Positions 51,973 through 60,604 of a stretch of DNA of 64,000 nucleotides are shown here, piece by piece. Made by a program: the position numbers and the translations under genes. How positions within the stretch are numbered: the stretch's first letter is position 1; every line of letters begins with the position of its first letter. The notes beneath the pieces were generated by a model. That model saw only the letters and a program-made list of their open reading frames with translations, did no database searches and had not been told where the DNA came from. Origin of the DNA: Arthrobacter jinronghuae (GTDB lineage Bacteria; Actinomycetota; Actinomycetes; Actinomycetales; Micrococcaceae); NCBI RefSeq assembly GCF_025244825.1, contig NZ_CP104263.1, positions 3,576,818 through 3,640,817 of the forward strand, read 5' to 3'.

Positions 51973-53126
51973 ATGACGGTCCCGGGTATGACTGAGGAGA
52001 CCATCCTCGTCTCGGGACCGATGATGCAGTGGCAGGATTACACCGGTTGCCAACGCTTGGCGGTTGTTGGCGCCGCCGTATTCGAAGGGCTCGCTGCCAC
52101 CCCGGCAGAGGCTGACGCCTTGCTTCACTCGGGGGAGATCCGGTTGGCTCCTGCCACGAGTACGGCGCCGTTGGTTCGCTTACGGGGGTTTGCTCTGCCT
52201 CCATGCCCGTACTGGTGGTGCAGGACCGCCTGTCCGGGCGCACCGCTACGTGCAGGATGAATGAAGGTCCAGGGACGCAGGCGCTTACCTTCGGATCCCA
52301 GGGACCAGCGGTTGACGACAATCTGGTCCGAATCAGGAACCACGTGGCACCGGCCTTGGCGCAGATCCTCCGGGAATCTCCGATACCGCTGCTGCCCATC
52401 ATGGCGCAGGCGCTGGCGATGGGCGATGAACTCCACGGCAGGCAAACCGCTGCCGGGCTTCTGTTCCGGAATGCCGTCCTGGAACGCATCCTCCGGCGTC
52501 CGGGCGATGGCCCGGAGGCCGCTTCATTGCTGGCGTACCTCGACACAGCGGAATTCCATTTCCTGCACGTCGCCATGGCAGCCGCAAAGGTGATTGCAGA
52601 CGGAGCAGAGTCAATTCCGGGCAGTTCCATCGTCACGGCCATGGCAATGAACGAGAAGGAGTTCGCGGTCAGGGTTTCCGGCGTGCCGGGTCAGTGGTTC
52701 CGTACACCCCTGCCGCCGATCGCCGGGTTTTCCGGAAAACTCATAGCGCCTTGGACGTCCGCTGATCTGGGGTACAGCGGTGGCGACAGCCTGATCATGG
52801 AAACACTGGGGCTGGGCGGCGCCGCTGCGGCGGCGGCTCCCGCGCTGAGTCCGGTCTCCATCGGGACCCCGGCGCAAATGATGGAACTGACCAGCTCCCT
52901 GTATGCGGTCGCGTCGACGGAGCATCCGACGATGCGGATTCCGGCGCTCGGCGGGCGCGGGGTCCCCTGGGGTATGGATGCTGCCGCCATTGCGGGGCTC
53001 CGCCTCGTACCTCCGGTGCACATCGGGGCGACCCTGCGCAGCGGCGGACTCGCCGGCGCGATTTTCTTCACTCCGCCGCTCCAGCCCTTTATCGACGCGG
53101 CCGAACGGCTGCAGTCAATCCGATAA
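51973..53126 (+). pseudogene. DUF1116 (YlbE-like) gene, frameshifted and N-truncated
   Basis: Two frames join to one DUF1116 protein. The first (from 51973) reads ETILVSGPMMQWQDYTG and ends its family match at RLAP near 52152. The next frame, beginning at 52152, continues at once with CHEYGAVGSLTG and then MPVLVVQ to the normal C-terminus at 53126. One base is missing at about 52150-52152. The usual N-terminal 35-40 residues are also lacking. Family partners (FdrA, carbamate kinase) are absent. Likely a decayed gene; a sequencing error could explain the shift but not the missing start. Confidence 0.8.
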
Positions 53127-53127
53127 C

Positions 53128-53143
53128 CGTTTCACGTGAAACA
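53128..53143. promoter_or_regulatory. parS site 1
   Basis: CGTTTCACGTGAAACA, core exact. It begins one base after the stop codon of the DUF1116 remnant. Farthest site from parB (4.7 kb from the parB stop). Confidence 0.9.
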
Positions 53144-53167
53144 ACACGCTCCCCGGCGCCGTGTAGC

Positions 53168-53208
53168 CCTGGGTGCCCTGGGTGACCTGGGTGCCCTGGG
53201 TGACCTGG
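53168..53208. repeat. 9-bp tandem repeat next to parS 1
   Basis: Four units of CCTGGGTGM (M alternates C, A, C, A), then CCTGG. It starts 24 bp after parS 1. Confidence 0.9.
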
Positions 53209-53232
53209 TCAAAATAAGCCCCTGCTAAACCG

Positions 53233-53808
53233 TCAGGGGTTGGCTTCGCGGGCATTGCCTGGTTGCCGCTCTAGCTGCGTTTCGGGTGGGGAGTCAGGAT
53301 GGATCGCCATAAAAAGCGAGTAGTGTGTGCTGCCCTCAGGAGGTTCTTCGGCTTCGAACTCATCCAGCAGAGCCTGGAGGCGTTCGAGGAGCCGGGCATG
53401 TCCCTCTTCGGTGAGACGTATACCTAGCCGGGAGATTTGGACCTGTTCCGACGCGGGGACCTGTCCGACCTCGGAAACAAACGCGCCGATAGCTGCGCCC
53501 CGCAAGCGGAGATCCCGGCCATCGAGGTTTAACTGCCATGACTTGTCCGTGGCGCTGTAAGGGATCTCGTATGCGCCACTCGGCCCGGACCGCGCCTCCT
53601 GCGGTTCCAAGAAGCCTACTGAGACGAGCTTGCGGACGTGATAGAGCACTGTCGCCGGATTGGCTGCGAGCCTGGTCGCAATTTCCTTGTTGGTCAGCTG
53701 CTCTTTCCTGCAGAGGCGCAAAATGCGGATACGCATTGCCGATGCAAGGGCTTTCGCCTCTTCCTCGCTTGCTGACCGCCGAGGGACCGTGCCGCTCTCG
53801 TCTGTCAT
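53233..53808 (-). CDS. ArsR-type (winged-helix) transcriptional regulator
   Basis: 191 residues. Winged HTH near the start: ILRLCRKEQLTNKEIATRLA and ATVLYHVRKLVSVGFLEPQ, followed by a longer C-terminal domain with a LERLQALLDEFE helix. No metal-binding Cys pair, so it probably senses a small molecule. It is divergent from the MFS gene and a 32-bp dyad lies between them, so it should repress that transporter and itself. Confidence 0.85.
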   Translation of the reverse strand: MTDESGTVPRRSASEEEAKALASAMRIRILRLCRKEQLTNKEIATRLAANPATVLYHVRKLVSVGFLEPQEARSGPSGAYEIPYSATDKSWQLNLDGRDLRLRGAAIGAFVSEVGQVPASEQVQISRLGIRLTEEGHARLLERLQALLDEFEAEEPPEGSTHYSLFMAIHPDSPPETQLERQPGNAREANP

Positions 53809-53832
53809 GTGTGCACAATACCAGAAGGCCTA

Positions 53833-53864
53833 TTGACAAAGATCAATCGATTGGTCAGAGTCAA
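53833..53864. promoter_or_regulatory. Operator-like dyad between regulator and exporter
   Basis: A 32-bp dyad centred on ATCGAT: outer arms TTGAC and GTCAA, inner GATCAATC and GATTGGTC; 12 of 16 positions match. It overlaps a TTGACA that could be the -35 box of the MFS gene, so a bound regulator would block transcription. Confidence 0.6.
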
Positions 53865-53868
53865 CCGC

Positions 53869-55155
53869 ATGACGACTGAAGACGGCGACGCGGCTGTGGC
53901 CCCTGGTGGGGTCCTACGGGATCACGACTTCCGATTCCTGTTCTATGCCACTTCCCTGAGCCAGCTAGGGCAGCAGGTTTCGGGCTTGGCGCTGCCACTC
54001 GTGGCGGTGGTGACACTGACGGCCAGTGAATTCGAAGTTGGACTGCTTTCGGCCATGGGCACCGTTGCGTTCCTGTTGATCGGACTGCCCGCCGGAGTAT
54101 GGGTCGATCGGCTGCGCTACCGCCAAGTGCTCGTCTCTTCGGACCTGATTCGGGCGGCGGTCCTGCTCACTGTTCCGCTCGCCTGGTGGCTTGGGGTACT
54201 CACAGTCTGGCAGCTTTACGTCGTGGCGTTGCTTATCGGCGTTTTCAGCGTCTTCTTCGACGTCGCTTACCAAAGCTATCTGCCGCGGCTTATCGGGCGA
54301 GACCATTTGGTCGAAGGAAATGCCAAGTTGGAAACGGTGCACTCAGTTGCCCAACTTGGGGGTCCGGTCGCAGCCGGCCAGCTCATTGCCTGGCTGACGG
54401 CGCCCATTGCCCTGGCCTTGGATGCAATCGCGATGGGATTGTCCGCGCTGTTCATTGGGCGCATGCGTCACCGGCAGCCCAAGCCAGAGCCAGTGCCGGG
54501 ATCCCAGCTGGGCAGGGACATCGCAGAGGGCCTGCGTTTCGTTCTGGGCAACCCCCTGCTGCGGGCCATTGCTGGTGCCACAGCATTGTTCAACCTGGCC
54601 TTTGCCGCGTACATGGCGATGCTGGTGTTCTTCCTTCCGAGAGAGCTTGGCCTTGGTGCGCACCAAATCGGCATGGTCTTTTCGGTTCTTGGGATTGGCG
54701 GCCTTGCCGGCGCGCTGGCGACCCGGCGGCTAACCCTGTGGCTGGGTGAAGGACCTGCCATCTGGCTGTCCATGGCTGTGACAGCGCCTTTTGCTCTTCT
54801 GTTGCCTGCTGCGGGAGGCGGATGGTCGGTTTGGTTGGGCGCGGCTGGACTGGCCGTGGCCAGCTTCGGCACGGTGGTCTACAACGTCACTCAAGTGAGC
54901 TTTCGGCAAAGTCTGACCCCGGACCGCTTGCTGGGCCGCATGAACGCAACCATGCGTTTCCTGGTCTGGGGTACTCAGCCCGTCGGCGCGTTGCTGGGCG
55001 GAGTGCTTGGGCAGCTGTATGGAGCGGAGGCAGCACTCTGGATCGCGGCGGCGGCCGCCTGTGTAGCCTTCCTGCCGGTCGCGCTGTCACCCCTGCGAAG
55101 AATGCGGAAGCTACCCGATGAACAGCCCGCATCGGCCAATCCTTCCGCCGGATAG
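53869..55155 (+). CDS. MFS exporter, DHA3/macrolide-efflux type
   Basis: 428 residues, twelve helices. The N-terminus DHDFRFLFYATSLSQLGQQ, LVAVVTLTASEFEVGLL and GLPAGVWVDRLRYRQVL match the MefA/EntS-like branch of MFS drug exporters. The ATG at 53869 lies five bases after the operator dyad, so the mRNA leader must be short or absent. Paired with the divergent regulator. Confidence 0.85.
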   Translation: MTTEDGDAAVAPGGVLRDHDFRFLFYATSLSQLGQQVSGLALPLVAVVTLTASEFEVGLLSAMGTVAFLLIGLPAGVWVDRLRYRQVLVSSDLIRAAVLLTVPLAWWLGVLTVWQLYVVALLIGVFSVFFDVAYQSYLPRLIGRDHLVEGNAKLETVHSVAQLGGPVAAGQLIAWLTAPIALALDAIAMGLSALFIGRMRHRQPKPEPVPGSQLGRDIAEGLRFVLGNPLLRAIAGATALFNLAFAAYMAMLVFFLPRELGLGAHQIGMVFSVLGIGGLAGALATRRLTLWLGEGPAIWLSMAVTAPFALLLPAAGGGWSVWLGAAGLAVASFGTVVYNVTQVSFRQSLTPDRLLGRMNATMRFLVWGTQPVGALLGGVLGQLYGAEAALWIAAAAACVAFLPVALSPLRRMRKLPDEQPASANPSAG

Positions 55156-55195
55156 GCGTTCTTGAGCCACCGGGCTCCACCATCCACCCTGTCCT

Positions 55196-55211
55196 CGTTT
55201 CACGTGAAACA
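55196..55211. promoter_or_regulatory. parS site 2
   Basis: CGTTTCACGTGAAACA, 40 bp after the MFS stop codon. Core exact. Confidence 0.9.
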
Positions 55212-55239
55212 CGGCGTCGAGGGCGGAACTGGTCAGCGC

Positions 55240-55308
55240 GGTGCGGTGCGGTGCGGTGTTCGGTGTCCGGTGTCCGGTGTCCGGTGTTCGGTGTTCGGTG
55301 TCCGGTGC
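55240..55308. repeat. Tandem repeat next to parS 2
   Basis: Three 5-bp units GGTGC, then seven 7-bp units GGTGTYC (55255-55303), then GGTGC. It starts 28 bp after parS 2. Confidence 0.95.
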
Positions 55309-56273
55309 TGCTTCGACCAGGTTAAATGAGGAACACATCCAGCCTCAGACAAGGACGCCCCCCACTGGCGACGTCCGGCAGCACTTAGCCGAAGCGCAGC
55401 CAGGCTCGATCGGACGCTTGGAAGAATCACAGGAGCGGCAAACACTCGACGGCTACAAACCCTAGCCGGCCAGGAGAAGCTCAACCGCGGACGGCAGGCC
55501 GAGCGGGTCTTCGGAGGCCCCACCTCCATCCACACGTTGAGCACGGACTTGGCTTTAGCGGGACGGCCGCCCGACGTACTTTCCGGCACGGGGACAAGCT
55601 GGCGGTATCCGGCGCGGCACTTCTCCAGGTTTGGAAAGATACCGAGCCGCTACCCGTGGTGCCGCATGCGCCAGCCGTCACCTGTGTTCTCGGTTCAGTA
55701 GTCGTCTGCGTCTTCGCGAACGTATTCAGGAGCGGCGGTGTTCAGTTGTCTCCATCTTGGCTAAGCAACTGAGGCGTCGTGTGCCGTTACCCTGGAACCT
55801 CCGCCCTGACGCCTCGGCGACACATGACACGGGATAACACCCAACCGACTCCACCAGTCACGTGAATCCTTCATGCCGGCATCCTGCTAATTGCTCCCCT
55901 GTAGTTCCAGCCTCGAGCTTCGGTGGAAGTAGAGTCCGTGGGGCCCTTCTCGGGCACCTAGGGCCCGTTTCTTGTCAGCACCAGACCAATAGGTCTGCTT
56001 GGCTGCAGTTCGAATCCGCACCCCATAATCGACGCCAAGTTAAAGCGGGATACTGGTCGGCAACCGCAGGGCCGGCGGCGAGGCAGAGCCTGCTCATAAA
56101 CCGCCAGGCGGGCTGCAGTCCGCCTGGGTGCACAGAACCCCCCTGCTGGGTGGTCCATGACTTCACGGGGGAATCCCTCGGCCGCACGTAGCCCTCCTGT
56201 TCCTCGCGCCCACGTCTCGCCCGCTTAGGTGCAGCGGCCCGGTGAAGGGCAGCCTCTCCACCCCGCCGGCTGG

Positions 56274-56289
56274 TGTTTCACGTGAAACG
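56274..56289. promoter_or_regulatory. parS site 3
   Basis: TGTTTCACGTGAAACG. Core exact. Confidence 0.9.
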
Positions 56290-56464
56290 CCGCCAAGCGA
56301 TGACGCCCGCTTCCTACAATCCCTGCATCATCTGTGCAGCGGTAGTGCGGACTGACGGGCTGCTAAACATCCCGTCCATTCACCTCGCTTTCCACCATGT
56401 CCGGTGGACGCATGCCTTTCTCATGGGCCTAGCTAAGTGCCCCCCCCTGACCACACGCCCGCGT

Positions 56465-56480
56465 GGTTTCACGTGAAACA
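56465..56480. promoter_or_regulatory. parS site 4
   Basis: GGTTTCACGTGAAACA. Core exact. A 19-bp tandem repeat starts two bases after it. Confidence 0.9.
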
Positions 56481-56481
56481 G

Positions 56482-56519
56482 TCCGGGGCTACTATGGGAA
56501 TCCGGGGCTACTAAGGGAA
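56482..56519. repeat. 19-bp tandem duplication next to parS 4
   Basis: Two units, 56482-56500 and 56501-56519, differing at one base (TCCGGGGCTACTAWGGGAA). Confidence 0.95.
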
Positions 56520-56556
56520 TACGAACAATTCGCAGCGTGGCGCAGGCCCAATACCC

Positions 56557-56616
56557 AATGACGGACCGCTGCGCTTCACGTTTACCGCCAAACCGAATGA
56601 AGGACCGCTGCGCTTC
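56557..56616. repeat. 21-bp direct repeat
   Basis: Copies at 56557-56577 and 56596-56616 differ at one base (C or A after AATGA) and share GGACCGCTGCGCTTC. A shorter relative (GTGAAGGACCGTG) lies at about 56737-56749. Confidence 0.9.
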
Positions 56617-56897
56617 GCCCGCCCCACATTTACAGCGCACGGTTTCATCTGGGTTCCCGCTGTGTGGCACAGCGCCAGGACCTCGATGCCGGTGGCGGGG
56701 TATGTTCTTAAGCCATCGCCCTGTCCCTATGAGTCAGTGAAGGACCGTGTTCAACCCTTGACAATGGCCGTCAACAATACCGCCGATGACCACCCAGATA
56801 CCCGTACATGAGCGATCACCCGGCCGGACAGTGCCCGCATGACTTCGGAAGGCCCTGCGCTAAGGGGTGCCGGCGTCCTCGCTGTCTGCAAGCACGT

Positions 56898-56913
56898 CGT
56901 TTCACGTGAAACA
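56898..56913. promoter_or_regulatory. parS site 5
   Basis: CGTTTCACGTGAAACA. Core exact. Confidence 0.9.
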
Positions 56914-57121
56914 GCCCAAGTCTTGCGGCTCGTCTCAGCCTCCAGCAGGGCGGCAATCAGCTGGTGCCGTGTAGCCGTGCCGGCCTTTGAGGGGTTCCGC
57001 AGCGCCCAATTTGCATACGGAGACCTGCCGGTCCACAGCCATAACGGGTTTCATCAACCCTATAGTAGTTCGTAACCGCACCAAACCGCGGAACCGGTCT
57101 ATCCACGTCGAAGGTACCTCG

Positions 57122-57167
57122 GACGTGCTGGGGCCTAAGGTTCAGACGTGCTGGCGCCTAAGGTTCA
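57122..57167. repeat. 23-bp tandem duplication
   Basis: Units 57122-57144 and 57145-57167 differ at one base. Each starts GACGTGCTGG and ends CCTAAGGTTCA. Confidence 0.95.
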
Positions 57168-57393
57168 CTAGCACCGTGGGTTTCGCCGGAGGGATTGGCC
57201 GGCGCCCAGGCATTGCGCGCACCCGACTCTAGGGAGCCGCAATTACAACACGTGGACGTAGCCGACACGACCTCAATCGGCTCAGTACGCCCCTCCGGGC
57301 ATGTATTCGCCCAGTCGGGTGGTCGAATGGAGGGCTGCGGCAGAGGAGGCGCGAGACCACAAGGTGTAGGTATTGCCGCCGTAGCTGGAACTG

Positions 57394-57409
57394 GGTTTCA
57401 CGTGAAACC
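57394..57409. promoter_or_regulatory. parS site 6
   Basis: GGTTTCACGTGAAACC, a perfect 16-bp palindrome. Core exact. Confidence 0.9.
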
Positions 57410-57496
57410 TAGCATTCGCCGATGCGCCTGACCTGCAATCCCGCCCTTCAGGCCAGGGATCAGAGACGCGGAGCAAGGTCCCTCCCTTGCCAAGTC

Positions 57497-57512
57497 TGTT
57501 TCACGTGAAACG
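57497..57512. promoter_or_regulatory. parS site 7
   Basis: TGTTTCACGTGAAACG. Core exact. Confidence 0.9.
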
Positions 57513-57775
57513 TCGAGAACCGGGACCGTGGTGGAGACTGCCTGACACTGACGGAGCTACCGCCCAGTGTGTCGATGTGCGGTACATGCGTCCCGGGGCG
57601 AGCATCTGACACATCAACAGCGCAATAAGACGGGCGGCAGCGAAACAAACCGGCCGCCTGCGGTCCGTAGAGCCGCTCAACCGTTCGGTCGCAGTAGCGT
57701 GGGCGGCCGCCGAGCTTGCACGGTGACAGCCGATCCCGGCAAACCAGCCCATGCGACCTTTCCTCAAAAAGCACT

Positions 57776-57809
57776 AAGGGCCGGTGTTTCACGTGAAACA
57801 CCGGCCCTT
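57776..57809 (-). terminator. parB terminator built on parS site 8
   Basis: parS 8 is TGTTTCACGTGAAACA at 57785-57800. The palindrome continues on both sides (AAGGGCCGG and CCGGCCCTT) to a perfect 34-bp inverted repeat. It lies 24 bp after the parB stop and is followed on the minus strand by AGTGCTTTTT. The same DNA should be both a ParB site and the parB terminator. Confidence 0.8.
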
Positions 57810-57832
57810 TAGGCACCTCGTTGGGCTAGGAA

Positions 57833-59260
57833 CTACTCAGCGGGCGTAGAGAGGACACCCATAATACGATTCAGGTCATCCACGCTGGCGAACTCGATAC
57901 TGACCTTACCCTTCCGCGCACCAAGGGTGATCTTCACGTTTGTGTCCAGGCGGTCAGCGAGGGACGTCGCCAGATAATCCAGCCGTTCGTGCCGGGCGCC
58001 GATCTTTGGCTTCGATGTCTTGGCTGGCTTCCGCAGGCCGTCCGCAAGCGAAACGATCTCTTCGGTGGCACGAACGGAGAGGCCCTCGGCTACGATCTTC
58101 TGCGCCAGCTTCTCCATCTCAGCAGGATCCCCAAGCCCGAGCAATGCGCGTGCATGCCCAGCAGACAGAATTCCGGCGGCTAAGCGGCGCTGAACCAACG
58201 GAGGAAGCTTCATCAACCGCAGGGTGTTGGTTACCTGGGGCCGGGAGCGGCCGATGCGATCTGCTAGTTCTTCATGGGAGCAACCGAAGTCATCCAGAAG
58301 CTGCTGGTATGCAGCAGCTTCTTCCAGCGGGTTCAGCTGGCTGCGGTGCAGGTTCTCGAGGAGTGCATCCCGGAGAAGGTCAACATCCTGGGTGGACCGG
58401 ATGATAGCCGGCACCGAGGAGAGTCCTGCTTCGCGCGACGCACGCCAGCGCCGTTCACCCATAACAAGTTCGTAGGGGTGCTCCGCATCGCCCTCGAGCG
58501 AGGGACGAACGACAATCGGCTGGAGTACGCCGATTTCGCGAATGGAATGTACCAGTTCGGCCATGTCTTCTTCATCGAAGACCGATCGAGGCTGCTTACG
58601 GTTCGGATGAATCGAATCAATAGGAAGCTCGGCGAACGTTGCACCTGGCACCTGAACCAGGCCTTCCTCTCCGCTGTAATCCGGGGTCGATGTTTCACGG
58701 GAAACATTCGCATCCACCGGGCCAACAGCATCCTGAACCGCTTCCTTAGCCGCATCCGCCGGAGCAGGCACCGGAGCGGCCTGAGTGGCTTCAACCGCAG
58801 CCTTAGGACCGTCGGAGGGCTTGGTCTTCGCCGCACCCTTTACGTCGCTCTGGGTGGCCTTGGAAGCCGCATTGGCGCCCTTGTTGGTGGAACCCAGGGC
58901 GGGGGCCGGGGTGGACCCAGCAACCGTCCCTGCGGCCCCTGAGTCGTCGGGTTTGGCAGCCGGAGCAGGGCTGGGAGCCTCTGCCTCCGCAGGCTTGCGG
59001 GCTTCCGGACGGGACGCGGAGCTGCGCGTGGTCGACTTCTTTGCCGGACCGCGAAGCGCTTCCTTGTTAATGCCTGCGCCCCTGCGCGGACCCGTACCGC
59101 CGAACTGGGAGCGGGACTCATCCGCCGCAGCAAAGAACAAATCAGCCGGACGCCCAGGAGCAACGGTTCCCTGGTTCGGGTTTTCTGTCTCCGCAGGCTC
59201 CGCACTGCTAGGAATCAAAGCTCCCAGACCGCGGCCTAAACCCCGACGCTTCTCGGCCAT
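57833..59260 (-). CDS. parB: Chromosome-partitioning protein ParB
   Basis: 475 residues, long for ParB. Residues 1-20 ([15 protein letters not shown]) are the ParA-binding tip. Residues 25-200 are a low-complexity Ala/Pro/Lys-rich extension. From 206 the CTP-binding ParB domain follows ([41 protein letters not shown]), then the parS-binding HTH ([20 protein letters not shown]) and the dimerisation end. A near-parS lies inside the gene at 58691-58706, coding for VSRET at 186-190. Confidence 0.95.
58691..58706. promoter_or_regulatory. Degenerate parS inside parB
   Basis: TGTTTCACGGGAAACA, one mismatch from the consensus, at the centre of the dyad. In the gene it encodes VSRET; the changed base is synonymous (Ser TCA to TCC). 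ParB binding is probably weak here. Confidence 0.5.
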
Positions 59261-59365
59261 GGGTAAGTCCTTCCCTTATGCCAGCACTTCAAGCGGCACG
59301 GATTGATTGTGAGAGTATTCTATGGCGCGGAAGCTAGCTGGCAGCCGAACCCCGCCGGGGTGTCA

Positions 59366-60604
59366 CTAGGCGCGCTGGGCTATCTCGGCTGCCGCTTCCA
59401 AATAGGAAAGCGCACCAGTTGAAGACGGGTCATACGTCATCACGGTCTGCTGGTAGCTCGGCGCCTCCGAAACGCGTACCGAGCGCGGAACGACCGCGCG
59501 CAGCACCTGCTCGGGGAAGTGTTCGCGTACCTCGGCGGCAACCTGTGCGGCGAGGTTCGTTCTACCGTCGTACATGGTGAGCAGAATCGTGGAGACAACC
59601 AGATCAGCGTTCAAATGCTTTTGGATCATCTCGATATTCTTCAGCAGCTGGCTGAGGCCCTCGAGCGCGTAGTACTCGCACTGGATCGGGATCAGGACTT
59701 CCCTTGCCGCTACAAAGGCATTGACGGTGAGCAGACCGAGGCTCGGCGGGCAATCAATGAATATGTAGTCCAGGCGCTCCAGCCCCTGCTTTTCCCGTTC
59801 GGCCGCATAGACATTGATGGCGCGGCTCAAACGCTGTTCACGCGCAACCAGGGAAACCAGTTCGATTTCTGCCCCGGCGAGGTGGATAGTCGCCGGCGCA
59901 CAGATGAGGTTGCTGATGTCCGGGCACTGCGCAACCACATTGGCCAGCGGAAGGTCATCGATCAGTACATCGTAGATGCTCTCCACGTCAGCACGGTGGT
60001 CGATGCCAAGGGCCGTAGATGCGTTTCCCTGCGGATCGATGTCGATAACCAAAACGTTCTGGCCGGCGGTCGCCAGGGCAGCAGCAAGGTTGACCGTGGT
60101 GGTCGTTTTCCCCACCCCGCCCTTCTGGTTGCTCACCGTCATGATGCGCGTCTGGGGCGGCCGCGGCAAAACGCGTCCGCGAAGCTTCTCCCGACGCCGG
60201 TTTTCACTGGCCAGTTCCCGCGCCAGCGGGGTGCTCTCGTCCATCAAATCCATAACGTCTTCCGAGGTCGCCACAGGAGCGGCTCCTTCGGATACACCAC
60301 CTTCGATAGCTCGGGGGGCCTGCACGAGTGCGGCACTGCTTTCAGTCTGGGCGGGTTCCAACTGCTCGGCCGGTTCCAGCGACTTAGCGGGTTCCGGCGA
60401 CTTAGCGGCTTCCAACGACTTAGCGGGTTCCAGCCGCTCGGCCGGCACCGTTTCACGTGAAACGATCGCTGGCTTTTCCACAACCACTTGTGGTTGCTTT
60501 CTACCGAACGAGGCGGACAGGGCAGAACCGAGTGCGGCGAAGGGAGGAATTCGTTTTGCGGCAGAATCACGCGCACTCACCTGGTCATGCTCACTTTCCA
60601 ACAT
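59366..60604 (-). CDS. parA: Chromosome-partitioning ATPase ParA
   Basis: 412 residues. The ParA/MinD core starts near 152 with the deviant Walker A NQKGGVGKTTTT (lysine signature at 161), then DIDPQGNAST and IFIDCPPSLG. An extra N-terminal 150 residues hold a repetitive Leu-Glu-Pro-Ala-Lys-Ser stretch at 58-86. It moves ParB-parS complexes. parS 9 lies inside the gene, encoding VSRET at residues 48-52. The start ATG at 60604 has a weak ribosome site. Order parA-parB is standard. Confidence 0.95.
   Translation of the reverse strand: MLESEHDQVSARDSAAKRIPPFAALGSALSASFGRKQPQVVVEKPAIVSRETVPAERLEPAKSLEAAKSPEPAKSLEPAEQLEPAQTESSAALVQAPRAIEGGVSEGAAPVATSEDVMDLMDESTPLARELASENRRREKLRGRVLPRPPQTRIMTVSNQKGGVGKTTTTVNLAAALATAGQNVLVIDIDPQGNASTALGIDHRADVESIYDVLIDDLPLANVVAQCPDISNLICAPATIHLAGAEIELVSLVAREQRLSRAINVYAAEREKQGLERLDYIFIDCPPSLGLLTVNAFVAAREVLIPIQCEYYALEGLSQLLKNIEMIQKHLNADLVVSTILLTMYDGRTNLAAQVAAEVREHFPEQVLRAVVPRSVRVSEAPSYQQTVMTYDPSSTGALSYLEAAAEIAQRA
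60449..60464. promoter_or_regulatory. parS site 9, inside parA
   Basis: CGTTTCACGTGAAACG, core exact, within the disordered N-terminal coding region of parA (encodes VSRET on the minus strand). Confidence 0.9.

Follow-up and report, generated by a model that had tools for sequence, protein, structure and literature searches.

The parABS locus and its parS sites

The DNA analyzed here, hereinafter the window, comprises the last 64 kb of the single 3,640,817-base (3.64-Mb) genome contig of Arthrobacter jinronghuae. It contains a ParABS partition locus in which parA and parB stand beside a 2,677-bp interval without recognizable genes that harbors seven exact copies of the 14-base parS core, GTTTCACGTGAAAC. 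The parS of Bacillus subtilis has the same core sequence. Across the window there are nine exact copies, starting at 53129, 55197, 56275, 56466, 56899, 57395, 57498, 57786 and 60450; six of them fall within 56275–57799 (1.53 kb), seven within 55156–57832, and all nine span 7.3 kb at one end of the contig. The features of the locus are:

52203–53126, plus strand: AllG-like gene, ending just before the leftmost parS
53129–53142: exact parS, intergenic, just 3′ of the AllG-like gene stop (53126)
53233–53808, minus strand: helix-turn-helix (HTH) regulator gene
53809–55155, plus strand: gene for a major facilitator superfamily (MFS) transporter, bounding the array on the left and convergent with parB
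55156–57832: gene-free interval, 2,677 bp, with seven exact parS, between the convergent MFS gene and parB
55197–55210: exact parS, about 40 bases 3′ of the MFS gene stop, no extended hairpin
56275–56288: exact parS, gene-free interval
56466–56479: exact parS, gene-free interval
56899–56912: exact parS, gene-free interval
57395–57408: exact parS, gene-free interval
57498–57511: exact parS, gene-free interval
57776–57809, minus strand: perfect 34-base palindrome with parS 57786–57799 at its center, then AGTGCTTTTT on the parB strand; predicted parB terminator
57786–57799: exact parS, palindrome center, the parS nearest parB
57833–59260, minus strand: parB (475 aa)
58692–58705: parS with one mismatch (GTTTCACGGGAAAC), within parB, encodes VSRET
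59366–60604, minus strand: parA (412 aa)
60450–60463: exact parS, within the 5′ part of parA, encodes VSRET

When up to three mismatches were allowed, the window yielded ten matches, as compared to a mean of 1.6 and a maximum of 6 in 100 shuffles, the tenth being the single-mismatch copy at 58692. Genome-wide, a search with up to one mismatch retrieved the same nine exact copies, that at 58692 and one at genome position 230647, with nothing further, and a reversed-pattern control at the same stringency had no match in the whole genome. The shuffle comparison and the genome-wide count together rule out a chance origin of the parS copies. The copy at 230647 (locus L111, 5647–5660) lies outside the cluster, and chance alone would, by simple base counts, give about half a copy of this kind. 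Thus, the nine 14-mers reported in the initial annotation all recur at the same positions, far above shuffles, and the genome-wide count that it proposed as a check, run with up to one mismatch, uncovered neither other exact copies nor a comparable density elsewhere. Its claim that six sites are packed in gene-free DNA beside parB likewise stands, the full interval holding seven. Its account of sites spread from cwlM to parA calls for small corrections only: the sites at 53129 and 55197 are also intergenic, that at 60450 is inside parA, and the leftmost follows the AllG-like gene.

The parB product combines the ParB_N, HTH_ParB and ParB_C domains (PF02195, PF17762 and PF23552), i.e., the N-terminal, HTH and dimerization modules, and the solved chains closest to it are ParB/Spo0J proteins. 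The adjacent parA product matches AAA_31 (PF13614, 190.7 bits) and PF01656, which marks it as a ParA-type ATPase. Beyond parA lie rsmG/gidB and then a gene for an R3H-domain protein. From base 365 of the same contig runs a frame that we take, from its translation, to be dnaA-like, followed by presumably dnaN-like and recF-like frames; hence, if the contig is circular, the cluster sits immediately to the left of the origin region, the last parS being about 4 kb left of the dnaA-like gene. With parS near the origin (again assuming a circular contig) and rare elsewhere, the sequence supports the identification of the locus as a chromosomal (class I) ParABS partition system. The initial annotation had named it the ParABS loading center left of the origin: the domains of ParA and ParB bear out the system and the dnaA-like gene bears out the position, given circularity, while loading itself is a prediction.

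An interval without recognizable genes

In a gap survey of this genome, which used a home-made gene caller and covered the window and 19 sampled 20-kb stretches (444 kb, 335 gaps), the 2,677-bp interval is the longest gap, the runner-up being 684 bp. The longest open reading frame (ORF) within it has 118 aa, as against a median of 179 aa and an approximate 5th percentile of 130 aa in 200 simulated sequences of like composition. None of ten ORF translations from the interval matched Pfam at E ≤ 0.1, a tRNA search of the interval found none, an Rfam search of it gave no match reaching the gathering score, and gene models trained on the own genome and on the genus call no gene there. A gene-calling artefact is ruled out by the lack of a long ORF, of a Pfam match among the ten ORFs and of a gene call by the own-genome model. 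Against the absence of genes speaks a single frame, 757 bases past the stop of parB, which was called by a model trained on mixed order-level loci and run with a lower cut-off. It fits a 78-aa ORF (56839–57075) that is among the ten without a Pfam match, and we discount it as the product of a foreign model and a lower cut-off. A sub-threshold Rfam match to the trypanosome snoRNA snoTBR5 (57348–57433, 25.6 bits against a gathering score of 44) was taken as chance. Decayed genes were not seen with Pfam, no further search for broken frames having been made.

Repeat analysis gave no sign of a tandem-repeat origin of the interval. Beyond the core and some flanking bases the parS copies share no unit among the repeat families shown and their spacings differ, which sets the array apart from plasmid-type tandem-repeat centromeres. 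The spacers contain short duplications at 56482–56519, 56553–56616 and 57119–57164 (19 and 23 bases in tandem, and 25 bases repeated 39 apart), which are a possible route of spacer growth. A run of degenerate GTGTCCG/GTGTTCG heptamers occupies 55246–55306, beside the parS at 55197.

Recurrence of the array in relatives

Among 29 genomes of the genus, our own included, all 29 carry 5–11 exact parS, with none for the reversed control, and in all ten genomes where every place is known (our own and G001–G009, G009 being the record of locus L012, from the same species as the window) the exact copies form one cluster of 2.5–7.3 kb. For a broader comparison we took the best 80 of 92 loci from a ParB search of GTDB genomes, delimiting gaps with a home-made, clade-trained hexamer gene caller (genes of at least 180 bp) and scoring parS with up to one mismatch; lower-score gene models split some arrays (such as L016 and L022) by small calls, and a higher score and a minimum length were used. 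Gaps with at least four parS number 51, occur in 50 of the 80 loci and have a median length of 2,724 bp. By comparison, the 826 parS-less gaps of the same loci have a median of 95 bp and include a single one of at least 1,500 bp, making the array gaps about 29 times as long as the median parS-less gap. Tight clustering of parS close to the origin is ordinary in itself, whereas gene-free arrays are not, although they are common in this family.

The arrays lie on either side of parB: at least four parS stand downstream of parB in 38 of the 80 loci and between parA and parB in 16, and no locus has both. The comparison of the parB-left interval among Arthrobacter genomes that the initial annotation had suggested, here widened to the 80 loci, finds the array on that side of parB in 38 of them. 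Convergent genes flank 30 of 35 arrays downstream of parB; the 38 parS-less convergent gaps never exceed 581 bp and have a median of 97 bp. When the genes that follow parB are sorted by sequence, array-less loci included, they form 25 groups, of which the largest counts 33 members.

The interposed gaps between parA and parB measure 0.87–4.6 kb, and in 14 of these 16 loci the gap after parB is then at most 384 bp, the exceptions being L054 (1,105 bp) and L057 (where the gap runs to the contig end). This layout is found in Micrococcus, Citricoccus, Yaniella and five of seven Nesterenkonia loci, as well as in two Zhihengliuella records, one Kocuria record and Galactobacter with one metagenome-assembled genome labeled Arthrobacter. 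A quick tree of ParA and ParB (77 rows: 16 interposed, 36 downstream, 20 other and 5 not scored) implies at least three changes between the downstream and interposed layouts, a count that is provisional since it stems from two Par proteins alone with long branches. Outside the family, 20 loci drawn from 18 different families of the order were compared: L143, L147 and L152 have a gene-free array downstream of parB, and L144 and L153 have arrays that, by position, are upstream of parA.

Conserved sites and drifting spacers

Between the window and the same-species locus L012 all seven sites are kept, with spacers 86–96% identical and 4-fold sites of parA and parB 98% and 96% identical. In the more distant L013 and L016 the 4-fold identities of parA/parB drop to 78/61% and 64/46%, respectively. 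The six parB-near sites of the window lie at +33, 321, 424, 920, 1353 and 1544 and those of L013 at +33, 343, 447, 902, 1292 and 1477; the spacings run 288, 103, 496, 433 and 191 in the window, 310, 104, 455, 390 and 185 in L013 and 372, 106, 473, 403 and 170 in L016. Against L013, blastn aligns only pieces of 18–86 bases, each around a parS. In global alignment, five of five L013 spacers score above all 30 shuffles, indicating that some homology is left, as compared to none of five in L016. Thus, the sites and their rough spacing have outlived most of the DNA between them.

Pooled over the family, the sites are also more evenly spaced than random placement would give: of 46 arrays with at least five sites, 24 have p < 0.05 and 41 have p < 0.5, the five with p > 0.5 being L013, L054, L057, L064 and L066. 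Spacings have a median of 325 bp, with 9 of 270 shorter than 60 bp. The trend persists after thinning to single representatives of groups below 85% ParA+ParB identity (9 of 14 with p < 0.05 and 12 of 14 with p < 0.5).

A predicted hairpin with parS at its tip after parB

The parS nearest parB is part of a longer inverted repeat. The segment 57758–57832 folds at −39 kcal/mol (z −6.2), and six other loci with the hairpin give z of −4.6 to −9.7, as against 0.45 for the hairpin-less L033. A parS lies 0–60 bases past the parB stop in 54 of the 80 loci. At least seven of the ten next base pairs are complementary in 42 of these 54, compared with 19 of 557 other parS; the hairpin parS stand 15–48 bases past the stop, with arms reaching up to 26 bases from the center. 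With no selection on pairing, arm complementarity amounts to 79% in the 54 loci and 76% in a thinned set of 16, versus 36% (maximum 45%) when arms are re-dealt, and none of 5,000 re-dealings reaches the observed pairing in either set. A set of 25 loci selected for long arms scores 0.691 for covariation, as against 0.160 for shuffles, none of 500 of which scores as high; all 12 varying pairs changed on both sides, a count that is itself unremarkable (234 of 500 shuffles). In none of the 16 interposed arrays does the leading parS after parA reach seven of ten outer pairs.

The element resembles intrinsic terminators in being a stable predicted hairpin shortly past a stop codon, kept by compensatory change; the sense-strand T excess that accompanies it is modest. 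It differs from them in that the top of the stem is a fixed, predicted protein-binding DNA site and only the lower arms vary. We infer that the parB-proximal hairpin is a parB terminator and that a single sequence may serve as terminator in the RNA and as ParB site in the DNA. In other families, hairpin parS occur at both gap ends beside parB in L149 (7714 and 8573, one after each converging gene), after the stop of another gene in L154 (6928), and in L150 (7209) with no called stop within 150 bases.

parS in coding sequence and variant forms

The pentapeptide VSRET occurs within the first 140 residues of 47 of 77 ParA proteins, and all 47 are encoded by GTTTCACGTGAAAC, which speaks for these parA codons being held at the DNA level, though the loci share ancestry. 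It is also present in 55 of 80 ParB proteins, encoded by the exact core in 46, by GTTTCCCGTGAAAC in eight and by GTTTCACGGGAAAC in one; the coding parS of parB bears one synonymous change in the window and in L012–L016. In L026, L029, L031, L042, L043 and L091 the sites are mostly the asymmetric GTTCCACGTGAAAC rather than the palindrome. The orientation of GTTCCACGTGAAAC along the array is mixed in the eight loci compared and follows no rule.

Interpretation of the array

ParB loads at parS as a CTP (cytidine triphosphate)-dependent clamp, slides off and recruits SMC, and roadblocks stop its sliding in vitro (background on ParABS, together with PMC8357415, PMC9242446 and PMC7083940). We propose that the interval, a centromere-like parS array placed in DNA without recognizable genes, probably acts as a transcription-shielded platform for ParB loading, with ParB binding, shielding and termination predicted from the sequence. 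ParB would load at each parS as a sliding clamp, while the convergent flanks and the parS-hairpin, which would terminate the parB transcript, would exclude RNA polymerase from the array. The spaced sites would then permit clamps to load in parallel without mutual blocking, giving one compact ParB complex beside the origin on which ParA and SMC could act.

Several observations weigh against this reading. The window array is not significantly even by itself (p 0.42 for seven sites and 0.12 for six); given that the pooled arrays are, the claim of evenness concerns the family. A simple terminator scan of the region finds 8 sites versus 7.2 in shuffles, although the parS candidate has 15 stem pairs and the other seven 5–6. 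The hairpin is absent at 12 of the 54 parS just after parB and at the left-flank parS of the window (55197), and the T excess past the stem on the parB strand is modest (4.2 versus 3.1 T in 12 bases, p 0.0014, 42 loci). For interposed arrays, which lie between a parA and a parB of the same direction, shielding is less obvious. Neither layout is seen in 26 of the 80 loci, including most Glutamicibacter and Paeniglutamicibacter, which have spread sites (some contigs are cut), and 15 of the 20 loci from other families have no gap with four parS. Moreover, ParB chromatin immunoprecipitation (ChIP) profiles show no strong change near genes (PMC9242446), which weakens the need for a gene-free track, and one parS sufficed in Corynebacterium glutamicum (PMC7083940). 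In light of these profiles, the sufficiency of a single parS and the family members that lack the layout, the loading platform is the best reading but not a proven one.

A real if minority possibility is an ordinary ParABS centromere in a neutral gap, where the sites are selected and the lack of genes is a by-product, with the convergent gap gaining filler and rejecting inserts since the parS must stay together. The freely evolving spacer DNA and its short duplications, suggestive of filler growth, are in line with this, as are the many bacteria that get by with intergenic or intragenic parS (PMC7083940; the other-family loci). However, a by-product accounts poorly for gaps with at least four parS, which are about 29 times the median parS-less gap and present in 50 of 80 loci, for a layout that recurs across parB and, in two other-family loci, at a position upstream of parA, and for pooled and thinned arrays that are more even than chance. 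That the interval encodes an unrecognized RNA or small proteins, with parS being secondary, we regard as very improbable: the sub-threshold snoTBR5 match and the one frame from the foreign model point that way, but the ten ORFs lack Pfam matches, the longest is shorter than in simulated sequences, and little or no conservation is seen between the parS sites of relatives.

A further alternative pertains to the hairpin alone: the palindrome might serve ParB binding or DNA extrusion rather than termination. The modest T excess, the stems without a clear T run and arms of up to 26 bases, beyond what a terminator needs, would suit such a role. Yet we consider it unlikely, as the hairpin parS keep to 15–48 bases past the parB stop, other parS mostly lack a hairpin (19 of 557 have one), the T excess is on the parB strand, and in other families hairpin parS also follow other stops (both convergent flanks in L149; L154). 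Returning to the loading platform, it can be extended to a broader view, which we put forward tentatively and regard as doubtful: in the Micrococcaceae and some of their kin the centromere would be a distinct element in which selection maintains a track, free of transcription, of parS at even spacing. This track would be movable across parB and bounded by a parS-terminator, a single sequence acting both as DNA site for ParB and as the hairpin at which the parB transcript stops, with ParB occupancy tuning termination and thereby its own supply.

Relation to known partition systems and implications

The sopC locus of the F plasmid is a gene-free array of ParB-type sites beside a ParB-type gene, built of tandem, near-identical units. 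The Arthrobacter array is like sopC in placing its sites in gene-free DNA next to a ParB-type gene, and unlike it in having the chromosomal parS as its core and spacers that bear no relation to one another. ParABS systems, origin-near parS and their tight clustering are already known, with parS lying within 5–40 kb in most bacteria (PMC8357415). In C. glutamicum, ten redundant 16-bp parS occur near the origin over 35 kb, nine of them intergenic (PMC7083940). While the locus described here shares with that system an actinobacterial ParA and ParB and origin-near, mostly intergenic parS, it differs in that a single 2.7-kb gene-free interval beside parB holds seven of nine sites and that a hairpin after parB has a parS as its center. 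In B. subtilis, where parS is bound by ParB and ParB loads SMC, eight sites are scattered over about 0.75 Mb (PMC8357415), as opposed to the one compact array of Arthrobacter. The view in the initial annotation that packing the sites in a gene-free region is unusual thus applies to this genome, by its gap survey, and in comparison to C. glutamicum, but not to the family, given the 50 of 80 loci with such gaps. The parS-hairpin at the end of parB and the varying side of the array go beyond that annotation. Among the matches listed in a search of the open-licence literature, we found no description of parS arrays that are gene-free and evenly spaced, whichever the side of parB, and no paper on a hairpin after parB that carries a parS at its tip.

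Modeling and ChIP profiles differ on the coexistence of ParB clamps and SMC loading with transcription: roadblocks limit ParB sliding in the former but are hardly visible in the latter (PMC9242446). Kilobases of gene-free DNA with spaced parS and drifting spacers, in which the side of the array relative to parB varies, offer a natural test of this coexistence. The parS-hairpin, in turn, would be a single sequence kept both for DNA binding and for RNA folding, whose covariation can be read directly.

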